A stretch of 32,017 nucleotides of DNA from contig JAAYRF010000139.1 in assembly GCA_012518905.1 (NCBI GenBank), positions 1 through 32,017 of the forward strand. Direction: 5' to 3'. The stretch is from Bacillota bacterium. GTDB lineage: Bacteria; Bacillota; Limnochordia; DTU087. The notes under the pieces were generated by a model. That model had not been told where the DNA came from. It was given only the letters and a program-made list of their open reading frames with translations, and ran no database searches. The translations under genes and the position numbers were made by a program. Below, piece by piece: positions 3,289 through 23,287 of this stretch (position 1 is its first letter; each line of letters begins with the position of its first letter).

Positions 3289-4137
3289 TTAGAAGCCAGG
3301 CATTTGCATCTTCCATGGCTCTGTCTGCAACTCGTATTTGAGTTCCTCGGGCCAGTCCTCAGCCATTTTCTCCAGCAACGCAACCAGTATCTCCCAGGCA
3401 AGGTCAGGATGGGAAGACGCAAACCAGATGGCAAGGATCTCGTTGCGTCCCGGATGGGGGATGCCATAGATTGAACCGTCCACTTGCAGAGCCTCTAGTC
3501 CATTCGGGAAGAAGCTATCTATGAGATCTGGCCTAGATTCCAGGTAAGGAGTGAGATCCAAAAGACCCCCGTGCTCAGCGAACATAAGATAGCGATCTTC
3601 AAAGAGGGAAAAAACATCCGGTGCGTCCCTAGCTCCCATGAGGACAACCAATTTTTGATCATAGGCCACAGAAGGCGTTACTGCTATAGATAGATAGTGT
3701 TCGGGATGTGATGCGTTGAACTCTTCAACGATAGGGTCAAAATAAGCGCTTTCCGGTATTCCACCCGGCACCATGATGCTGATTTTGGTCCGTCCAGCGG
3801 CTGGATCCGGTCCAGGTCGCAAGGCAAACCCCACCAGCCCTAAAACCAGTACTACAGATATAATAATAAGAGCAGTGCGCTGGGGGCTGCGTTTGAGATA
3901 GCGGGCATCACCCAGATTTTCCCTAGGTTCGCTCTGAACTGCCAGTGCTACTTGTGGGCAGCCGTGTTGCCTGCAGCCTGCGGCTTCCCGCCAGCAGTCA
4001 GCGTGATGTGGGGATTTGCAGCGGGGACATACCACTACTTCATCGCCGGCATTTAGCTTCTTTTGGCATGCAATACATACATCGCCCACTAGCTTATGAT
4101 CTGCGGACAAAACCAATAGCTTCTCACTTCTGGCCAT
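3289..4137 (-). CDS. RING-finger-like zinc domain, transmembrane helix and half solute-binding-protein fusion
   Basis: 282 residues when started at the ATG 4137-4135, which has GGGGGAG upstream at good distance; an ATG 57 bases earlier has no comparable site. Residues 21-60 form a Cys/His cluster (C21, C24, C37, C40, H44/H45, C48, C55, C60) of the prokaryotic RING-finger type, expected to bind zinc. A basic stretch (KRSPQR) precedes one membrane helix at 88-106, predicting a cytoplasmic RING and an outside C terminus. Residues 118-282 resemble family 1 extracellular solute-binding proteins: an N-lobe start (KISIMVPGG), then DAPDVFSLFEDRY, then LQVDGSIYGIPHPGR, then a terminal helix like those closing such proteins. 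At about 165 residues, against roughly 400 for the family, the second lobe is missing. The gene stands alone with its own terminator. Ligand and role are unknown; transmembrane sensing is a guess. Confidence 0.7.
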   Translation of the reverse strand: MARSEKLLVLSADHKLVGDVCIACQKKLNAGDEVVVCPRCKSPHHADCWREAAGCRQHGCPQVALAVQSEPRENLGDARYLKRSPQRTALIIISVVLVLGLVGFALRPGPDPAAGRTKISIMVPGGIPESAYFDPIVEEFNASHPEHYLSIAVTPSVAYDQKLVVLMGARDAPDVFSLFEDRYLMFAEHGGLLDLTPYLESRPDLIDSFFPNGLEALQVDGSIYGIPHPGRNEILAIWFASSHPDLAWEILVALLEKMAEDWPEELKYELQTEPWKMQMPGF

Positions 4138-4220
4138 AGCAACTCTCCCCCAAAGACTTCCCAATCGACCTAACTCCTTGCTCAAGCATATCATATTAGT
4201 CGCTTGATTTCCATGCGATA

Positions 4221-8214: not shown

Positions 8215-9636
8215 TCAGCCAAGGATAAAGGCAGAGGACGAGATTAGATCACCTAGGCCAACTGTCAATACTGGCTTGGCTACTACTTTGGTCGGCACAA
8301 AAACTATGTGGCGACCGTTTCTTGCCCCGATGCCGGTTGTGGCAAATTCCTCGCATTCCAAGACCTTCGCCAGTGATGCTAGTCTCTCTTCGGCGCCGGT
8401 TGCCAAGGGTACATCCAGTCCGGCCAAGATCTCTTCCCAAGTTCCCACCTTGCCGATGGTGGACCGGCTGGCGGCCAGAGTTGCTGCAAATATCATTCCG
8501 TCTCGGCATTGCTTGCCAGTCGTATATTCGTTATCGACCAAGGTGAGGTAGTAGCCTAAGTCGTGGAGCTGTATGCGACGCAGACCTGTCCGATCAGCTA
8601 GCCTTTCCAGGCCTCGAAGGACCGCTTCCATGGAAGTGTGAGCTTCTATTTCCTCTGCTAACTTCACCTCTCCCTGATCCCGCAAAATGGCACAGAGCTC
8701 CACCTCGTTAAGCCCGAGACTATCTACTGTGGGCAGTATATGATCGACAATGCCTTGGCGTATGGCCGCGCTGGCGATGGAAGCGAACTCATAGTGAAAA
8801 CGAAGATGGATATGGGTTTTCTTCGTCTCTCGGAGAAAGCGGGCTACCGGCTTGAGATAGTCTTGCCATGTGGTGCCGTCGGGATATGTTTCCGACAGAA
8901 TATGGAATCCTGATACGATAAAATGGCTGAAGTCATCGGCCAACTTGGGCAAGTGATGCATGAAACCTTCTTCGATCTGAAGCTTGTTGTTAATCGGGTT
9001 CCACGCTGCGATGAAGCGGTTAGCCCTTGGGCTTTCTATGACTGTATCACCTATCTTTAGCTTCAGCCCTTTGGGATATTCAAATATCCAGTGTATGGCA
9101 TAGATGCCTTCTCCTTGCCATGCCTTTTGCGGATGCTCTAGCTTGCCTTTGGAGTTAATGACAAAAAGGTTGTCGGCATCGCTAAAGAGCTCAGCTTGCT
9201 CTTTGGTCAACGGATTAGCATAGACCAGAATTTGGGGTAGAGGCAAGGGTGCCAGGGAGTTGGCCATATTGCCCGAGGTGCCTCCCATACGGATATTATC
9301 ATATCGGAGGTTATCCATGATCCAATTGTGTGTTGCTTCTTCTCTGATCATGAGCTGTAGTGCCTTACCTTTTTGCAGGGAACTTAGCAACCCAACGAGA
9401 AGATCGGCAGGTGTGCTGATTTCCGAGGGGACCGCTCCTAGGCGGCTTAGTACTTCCTCCTGCAAGGTAGGGTCCTCATTAAGTACCTTTTCTATTTCTG
9501 TGGGAACGACTCGTTTGAAGCCATCGATGGTTGAATGAAAGCCTAGAATCACACCGGGTACAGCTTCCAGGCTAGTGCGTTTTTTCGGCACTGCCTCCCG
9601 GTAGAGGTTTTCCCAGTTTGCCTGAATAGACACCAA
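8215..9636 (-). CDS. ADP-dependent glucokinase/phosphofructokinase family protein
   Basis: 473 residues, the length of archaeal ADP-dependent sugar kinases. These use ADP, not ATP, to phosphorylate glucose or fructose 6-phosphate, giving AMP. They have a ribokinase-like fold. Visible marks are the substrate-side MGGTSGNMAN (117-126), an HxE motif (H281-Y-E283), the metal-associated NEVE (310-313), and the C-terminal VGLGD motif with catalytic Asp463 followed by LISSSAF. The start is TTG 9636-9634, or the adjacent GTG 9633; both lie within reach of AAAGGAG. Sequence alone does not separate glucokinase from phosphofructokinase. The gene is monocistronic and divergent from the YigZ gene. The family is best known from Euryarchaeota and animals and is patchy in bacteria, so horizontal transfer is plausible. 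Confidence 0.9.
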   Translation of the reverse strand: MVSIQANWENLYREAVPKKRTSLEAVPGVILGFHSTIDGFKRVVPTEIEKVLNEDPTLQEEVLSRLGAVPSEISTPADLLVGLLSSLQKGKALQLMIREEATHNWIMDNLRYDNIRMGGTSGNMANSLAPLPLPQILVYANPLTKEQAELFSDADNLFVINSKGKLEHPQKAWQGEGIYAIHWIFEYPKGLKLKIGDTVIESPRANRFIAAWNPINNKLQIEEGFMHHLPKLADDFSHFIVSGFHILSETYPDGTTWQDYLKPVARFLRETKKTHIHLRFHYEFASIASAAIRQGIVDHILPTVDSLGLNEVELCAILRDQGEVKLAEEIEAHTSMEAVLRGLERLADRTGLRRIQLHDLGYYLTLVDNEYTTGKQCRDGMIFAATLAASRSTIGKVGTWEEILAGLDVPLATGAEERLASLAKVLECEEFATTGIGARNGRHIVFVPTKVVAKPVLTVGLGDLISSSAFILG

Positions 9637-9731
9637 AAGCTCACTCCTTTAATTGGTAAGATACCATTGTACCACGGTACTAACACTTCCACAAAGGTTC
9701 CATTATTCCCTTTCAAGGAAGGAGGGATGGG

Positions 9732-22188: not shown

Positions 22189-22270
22189 TGGGAAGGGATC
22201 CCACAACCTGTATGGAAATCCTTGAATGTCAATCAGTATCCAGACAATTCAGGCAGAACGGAGTGATGAT

Positions 22271-23287
22271 ATGGGGAAGGCGATTAAGGTTGGTGTGATT
22301 GGGGCGGGGCGCATCGGGAAGATCCATATTGAAAATCTCTGCTATAGAGTACCTAATGTGCAAGTGGCTGCCATCGCTGATGTGGCGGTAGACGAAACCT
22401 GCAAATGGGCTAAGCAGTTCGGCATTGCTAACGTTGTGGCAGATCCCATGGCAGTTATTTCTGATAGGAGCATTGATGCTGTCTTGATCTGTTCGCCAAC
22501 TGATACCCATGCGGATCTCATAATAGCGGCGGCTAGGGCAGGGAAGGACATATTCTGCGAAAAGCCCATCGCTAATGACCTCGGGAAAACTACGGCAGCA
22601 TTGGCGGCGGTTAAGGAAACCGGTGTCAAGCTTCAGGTAGGCTTTAATCGGAGATTTGATCCGAACTTCAAGAGGATCAAAGAGCTGATTCAAGGGGGAG
22701 AGCTAGGTGATCTGCATATAGTCAAAATCACATCCAGAGATCCTGCTCCGCCTCCCATCGAATATGTGGAGGTAAGCGGCGGCATTTTTATGGATATGAC
22801 TATCCATGACTTCGATATGGCTCGGTACTTGACCGGTAGCGAAGTCACAGAAGTATATGCTTCCGGCTCAGTGCTTATTGACCCCGAAATAGGGAAAGCA
22901 GGGGACTGGGACTCAGCCGTTGTCGTACTAAAATTTGCCAACAAGGCCACCTGTGTCATCGATAATAGTCGCCAGGCAGCCTATGGCTATGACCAAAGGG
23001 TAGAGGCCTTTGGCTCTAGGGGCAGCGCAATCGCATATAATAATAAACCCACCAATGTTGAGGTCAGTACGGAAAAGGCTGTCTGCACCGACAAGCCCCT
23101 ATATTTTTTCTTAGAGCGGTACATGGACTCTTTTGCCCAGGAACTTAAGGATTTTGTTGAGGCCCTGGAATCTGGCTCACCCATGCCGGTAACAGGGGAA
23201 GACGGTCTTCAATCTTTGTATGTCGCTATTGCAGCAACGAAATCTGCTAAGGAAAACCGACCGGTTAAAATAACTGAGGTTATGTAG
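22271..23287 (+). CDS. Gfo/Idh/MocA oxidoreductase, inositol 2-dehydrogenase-like
   Basis: 338 residues from ATG 22271 with CGGAG eight bases upstream. The Rossmann motif is VGVIGAGRIGKIH. The catalytic Lys98 lies in CEKPI, and the D175-x3-H179 pair in MDMTIHDFDM corresponds to the catalytic Asp/His of IolG. GFNRRFDPNF is also typical of myo-inositol 2-dehydrogenases. NAD-dependent oxidation of inositol or a related cyclitol/sugar is expected. No other iol genes are present, so a different polyol or sugar substrate linked to the adjacent importer is as likely. Confidence 0.85.
   Translation: MGKAIKVGVIGAGRIGKIHIENLCYRVPNVQVAAIADVAVDETCKWAKQFGIANVVADPMAVISDRSIDAVLICSPTDTHADLIIAAARAGKDIFCEKPIANDLGKTTAALAAVKETGVKLQVGFNRRFDPNFKRIKELIQGGELGDLHIVKITSRDPAPPPIEYVEVSGGIFMDMTIHDFDMARYLTGSEVTEVYASGSVLIDPEIGKAGDWDSAVVVLKFANKATCVIDNSRQAAYGYDQRVEAFGSRGSAIAYNNKPTNVEVSTEKAVCTDKPLYFFLERYMDSFAQELKDFVEALESGSPMPVTGEDGLQSLYVAIAATKSAKENRPVKITEVM

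Follow-up and report, generated by a model that had tools for sequence, protein, structure and literature searches.

An ADP-dependent sugar kinase subfamily with a remodelled sugar pocket in Limnochordia-like bacteria, a candidate replacement for IolC of inositol catabolism

Glucokinases, phosphofructokinases and bifunctional enzymes make up the known ADP-dependent sugar kinases, and a gene of this family on a bacterial contig, within the 32,017-nucleotide stretch analysed here (the window), raises the questions of where it came from and what it phosphorylates. The initial annotation had placed the gene exactly on an open reading frame of 473 residues on the minus strand, which starts with TTG a few bases downstream of AAAGGAG (Table 1), and had assigned it to this family. 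The assignment is borne out: the catalytic motifs are intact, the protein scores 266 bits in a Pfam profile search with PF04587 (gathering cut-off 27, E 6e-79), and the nearest solved structures are archaeal-type ADP-dependent phosphofructokinases (PFK) and glucokinases (GK), with E values of 1e-83 to 1e-54 and about 28–34% identity. The AlphaFold2 model (pLDDT 91) has the ADP-kinase fold, a Rossmann-like large domain with a small lid domain, and Foldseek aligns it to 6c8z, 4b8r and 6xio with TM scores of 0.81–0.88. A search of plasmids with the protein matched only haloarchaeal GK/PFK, at about 24–27% identity. The gene is not a contaminant, since its G+C content equals that of the window (0.507 and 0.508) and its flanking genes are common to sister genomes.

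What sets the protein apart is the sugar pocket. All family motifs had been read as present, which holds for HxE, NxxE and GLGD with Asp463 but not for GGTSGN: at that site the family has GGQ[A]G, and the replacement of its sugar-contacting Gln by Thr marks a separate subfamily. More than 80 PF04587 proteins, taken from relatives in the class and from named contigs, were aligned to AncMsPFK, whose sugar contacts are listed in the paper on its fructose 6-phosphate (F6P)-bound structure (PMC7948494) and whose numbering is used below for aligned positions. The alignment contains two main types, type A, to which the window gene belongs, and type B. In every typed member of type A N32 is replaced by His, N34 by Thr or Val, N181 by His and R212 by Asn, with residues 211–212 being Trp-Asn and Asp36 unchanged; Q116 becomes Thr (Asn in a small variant), K179 becomes Ala (Thr in locus L065, Pro in genome G026), and E90 and Q244 become Gln and His in nearly all members, the small GGN variant (G026a, G042/L076) retaining Glu90 and Gln244. 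Every type A member that is complete in the regions concerned retains the equivalents of R206, HxE, NxxE, H360 and GxGD. In the window kinase itself the F6P-site residues Lys179, Asn181 and Arg212 are Ala, His and Asn, and the glucose contacts Glu90, Gln116 and Gln244 are Gln, Thr and His, so that it has neither the PFK nor the GK signature; the only GK sugar-site residue in common is His at 181, as in T. litoralis glucokinase. Compared with AncMsPFK (6c8z/6xio), T. litoralis GK (1gc5) and the M. jannaschii enzyme (5od2), it thus shares the fold, the Mg-ADP site, HxE, NxxE, GxGD and the Arg206 and His360 equivalents, but has GGTSGN where these have GGQAGI, together with replaced sugar contacts. 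The alignment indicates that type A has rebuilt the acceptor site and kept the ADP, Mg and catalytic site. This agrees with NCBIfam scores far below the equivalog cut-offs, both for PFK (TIGR02045, 284 bits vs 408) and for GK (NF010641, 280 vs 554; NF010642, 211 vs 387). We predict that the acceptor is neither glucose nor F6P; a pocket that has lost the phosphate-binding Lys/Arg and gained histidines would be in keeping with an acid that carries no phosphate.

Table 1. Positions in the window of the type A kinase gene, its motifs and iolG (residue numbers are those of the window kinase unless AncMsPFK is named)
Feature	Position	Strand	Evidence
Gene of the type A kinase (473 aa; coordinates include the stop codon)	8215..9636	-	PF04587, closest solved structures, AF2/Foldseek
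Putative ribosome-binding site (AAAGGAG), upstream of TTG start	9637..9652	-	Sequence read
HSTID motif, residues 34-38 (AncMsPFK N32 to H, N34 to T; Asp36 kept)	9523..9537	-	Alignment
GGTSGN, residues 118-123, diagnostic of type A, with Thr in place of AncMsPFK Gln116	9268..9285	-	Alignment
Trp-Asn, residues 212-213, in place of PFK F6P-site Arg212	8998..9003	-	Alignment
HxE motif (HYE, residues 281-283), predicted Mg-ADP site	8788..8796	-	Alignment
NxxE motif (NEVE, residues 310-313), predicted Mg-ADP site	8698..8709	-	Alignment
GLGD motif (residues 460-463), containing Asp463, the catalytic base by homology	8248..8259	-	Alignment
iolG (inositol 2-dehydrogenase), proposed to act in one pathway with the kinase but not in one operon with it	22226..23287	+	TIGR04380, 477 bits vs cut-off 355

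Bacterial members of the family had been thought few and the gene possibly transferred. Neither expectation fits the survey: PF04587 is over its cut-off in 47 of 61 relatives from the same Limnochordia-like class, and 22 of the 61 carry type A. Outside the class only four type A genomes are found among 399 sampled genomes of the phylum, and isolated contigs, for example an Omnitrophota bin, also carry it. A tree of 75 sequences, built by IQ-TREE in a quick search with SH-aLRT as the only support measure, places type A in one clade (support 96), apart from the group that holds the archaeal-type PFK/GK references and type B; branching inside the clade broadly agrees with the division into families and orders. 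Type A thus appears, on this tree, to be a deep and largely vertically inherited bacterial subfamily of this class, and a recent archaeal transfer is unsupported; as only four archaeal-type references are included, an ancient transfer may have occurred. In all, the class has four or more kinds of ADP-family kinase. Further PF04587 kinds occur among the relatives (L193, L195, L197; L165, L167, L176, L181, L182, L188), and we noted a very divergent subfamily (about 440 aa, GGTG motif) and another type with Arg-Pro at 179/181.

The surroundings of the gene in the window (YigZ family, NUDIX, HEAT) contain no iol operon and gave no lead to function, as the DeoC, NUDIX, HEAT, YigZ, CutC and threonine-aldolase-like (beta-eliminating lyase) genes are shared mainly within close relatives. 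The operons around type A in relatives are more telling. In G026 a DeoR regulator, IolB, type A and a Cgl0159 aldolase (244 bits) form one operon in which IolB (205.5 bits, cut-off 205) overlaps the kinase gene, and in L065 a class II aldolase and IolB (233 bits) precede type A. A longer operon in L066, L067 and L069 starts with LacI, two TIM-barrel isomerases (IolO/IolE-like), IolB (196 bits, just under the cut-off of 205) and an IolG-like dehydrogenase, and continues with a DhnA/Cgl0159-type aldolase, type A, glyoxylate reductase and glycerate kinase. L070 has type A followed by a Cgl0159 aldolase and a TIM barrel, and in L063 a fusion of the two latter domains lies directly upstream and ends at the type A start; L036 has the same fusion nearby. 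IolB therefore adjoins type A or shares its operon in three separate lineages (L065, L066–69, G026), and type A holds an IolC-like place beside IolB and an aldolase in G026, L065 and L066/67/69, partly in L063 and L070, and not in the window. The common thread of these operons is isomerase, kinase, aldolase. A different setting is found in G231 and G255 (L231/L232), where type A lies directly behind split transketolase subunit genes, preceded also by alcohol dehydrogenases, and where IolB is absent from both genomes.

Several modules in these genomes deserve a separate remark. The TIM-Cgl0159 fusion, about 690 aa with a xylose-isomerase-like TIM barrel, is present on contig C11 of the window genome (G000 C11:5953-8031, L124), in L036 and L063, and in G449 and G450; it has no NCBIfam name and is probably a bifunctional isomerase-aldolase. 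In G018 (L128) IolB and this fusion, and in G025 (L130) IolB, adjoin neither type A nor IolC but an FGGY-family kinase, which may be yet another substitute for IolC. L232 also contains zinc and iron alcohol dehydrogenases and apparent branched-chain-type ABC transporter genes.

Co-occurrence across genomes points to the same aldolase. The Cgl0159-like aldolase (PF22649) is found in 8 of 10 type A genomes and 15 of 389 others among the 399 phylum genomes (Fisher p 1.4e-9, a value that ignores the remaining relatedness among genomes), and at family level in 7/7 families with type A. Outside the class, 10 of 11 type A genomes carry it and the remaining one has the L065 operon; IolC over the cut-off is absent from all eleven. 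Association with the inositol genes themselves does not exceed chance within the class, either for IolD (6/14, p 0.55) or for IolB (p 1.0), so PF22649 rather than IolD or IolB is the informative partner. The 14 class relatives with iolD divide into six with type A, four with IolC, none with both and four with neither; the absence of type A from all four IolC-positive class genomes is not significant alone. The aldolase family is itself connected with IolC in known systems. On annotated actinobacterial plasmids the Cgl0159-like gene lies directly downstream of the PfkB kinase gene iolC in all four regions inspected, with iolB and iolD following in three, the fourth (Pseudarthrobacter) having a gap in its gene table. 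A related aldolase domain, DUF2090, occurs in many bacteria as a fusion with IolC, and mutant fitness data led to the proposal that it is the DKG-6-phosphate aldolase (PMC9007349). In our genomes such an aldolase adjoins or co-occurs with an ADP-family kinase instead and, unlike the known iolC-linked aldolases, is often fused to a TIM-barrel isomerase.

We propose that type A is an ADP-dependent 5-dehydro-2-deoxygluconokinase, or a kinase for a very similar keto-sugar acid, that replaces IolC; we hold this to be as probable as all other readings together. 5-Dehydro-2-deoxy-D-gluconate is the product of IolB. Type A would transfer the beta-phosphate of Mg-ADP, placed by the HxE and NxxE motifs, to the 6-hydroxyl of this acid or a close analogue, with Asp463 as the base. 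A class I aldolase of the Cgl0159-like kind would then cleave the phosphorylated acid to DHAP and malonate semialdehyde. Type A would thereby take over the step of IolC (TIGR04382): the predicted reaction is the same, and in the relatives type A likewise neighbours IolB and a DeoC/LacD-type aldolase, but IolC is an ATP-dependent PfkB protein and type A a different kinase family within the ribokinase superfamily, with ADP as predicted donor. The window kinase matches PF04587 alone in Pfam, and its NCBIfam matches do not include TIGR04382; it therefore lies outside the IolC family, although it may do the same work.

The window organism offers such an enzyme a probable setting in which to act. 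Its iolG shares the window with the kinase, and iolD (901 bits) and iolE (422 bits) sit elsewhere, on contig C299, behind an iolB-like fragment at the contig edge; no IolC over the TIGR04382 cut-off was found in the genome, the best PfkB protein reaching 124 of 300 bits. In the sister genome G003, iolB-like, iolD, iolE and iolG genes form an operon, and none of its scanned genes was recognised as a kinase. Other kinases could fill this gap, including the PfkB proteins of the window genome below the cut-off, because three relatives (G048, G053, G055) possess iolD but lack both IolC and type A. The G003 locus (L139, 4292-15411), which lacks iolC, also contains a split transketolase, a LarA-like racemase (malate racemase family) and, to judge by the protein starts alone, genes resembling PGK and archaeal GAPDH.

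Type A may accept a wider range of substrates than the inositol intermediate, or a different one, because some genomes carry type A without IolB, IolD or the aldolase, because of the transketolase context in G231/G255 and because of the FGGY modules. A less probable reading, though one to be taken seriously, is that type A acts with ADP on a different keto-sugar or sugar acid, such as a ketose derived from a uronate or a pentose, that the Cgl0159-like/TIM-barrel module handles the same substrate, and that inositol genes joined only in some lineages. Many genomes indeed have type A and the aldolase without IolB or IolD, the TIM-barrel isomerases are as regular a partner of type A as IolB, and G231/G255 have the transketolase and dehydrogenases as flanking genes; five further genomes (G005, G007, G009, G010 and G038, four of them from one genus) have type A without IolB, a true IolD or PF22649 over the cut-off. 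Against this stand the three lineages with IolB adjacent to type A or in its operon and the position of the aldolase family beside iolC in Actinobacteria.

An ADP-dependent GK or PFK feeding glycolysis, which would be suggested by family membership, an identity of about 33% to the ADP-PFK/GK structures, the retained catalytic residues and His at 181, is improbable, and we have set it aside. The sugar contacts are consistently replaced, the equivalog scores are low, and the operons of the relatives are catabolic and not glycolytic, unlike the role of the characterised enzymes. The window genome also has a second PF04587 gene (G000:C270) of type B, which retains GGQAGI, K179, N181 and R212 and is PFK-like, and a search for pfkA, which the initial annotation had recommended, found that gene as well. 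With both in the same genome a glycolytic role of type A is unneeded, and the changed energy balance of glycolysis that had been envisaged for this organism loses its basis. Donor preference can shift within kinase families, but that type A mainly uses ATP or another donor, or is non-catalytic, is very improbable given the R206, HxE, NxxE, H360 and GxGD equivalents kept in all members complete there.

We found no paper that links an ADP-dependent kinase with inositol catabolism or describes this bacterial subfamily, in a search largely confined to literature outside subscription journals, and type A could tentatively, at slightly less than even chances, be the first ADP-dependent kinase assigned to this pathway. 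If the IolC replacement proposed here is correct, the ADP-dependent sugar kinases would gain a further specificity in a large bacterial branch whose sugar pocket is rebuilt and whose consistent partner is an aldolase. IolC would then have a non-orthologous replacement with ADP-driven activation outside glycolysis, annotations naming type A genes glucokinase or phosphofructokinase would be corrected, and a visible gap in the inositol pathway as predicted for the class would be closed.

Two other regions of the window were noted. The gene at 3289-4194 (minus strand) joins, unusually, an N-terminal prokaryotic RING-like domain to a hydrophobic stretch and a partial extracellular solute-binding domain. 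The segment 13685-21143 encodes a GHL6/GH42M-type protein, a GH4 glycosidase, a BadF-type kinase and an ABC sugar transporter, a probable cluster for glycoside uptake and breakdown.
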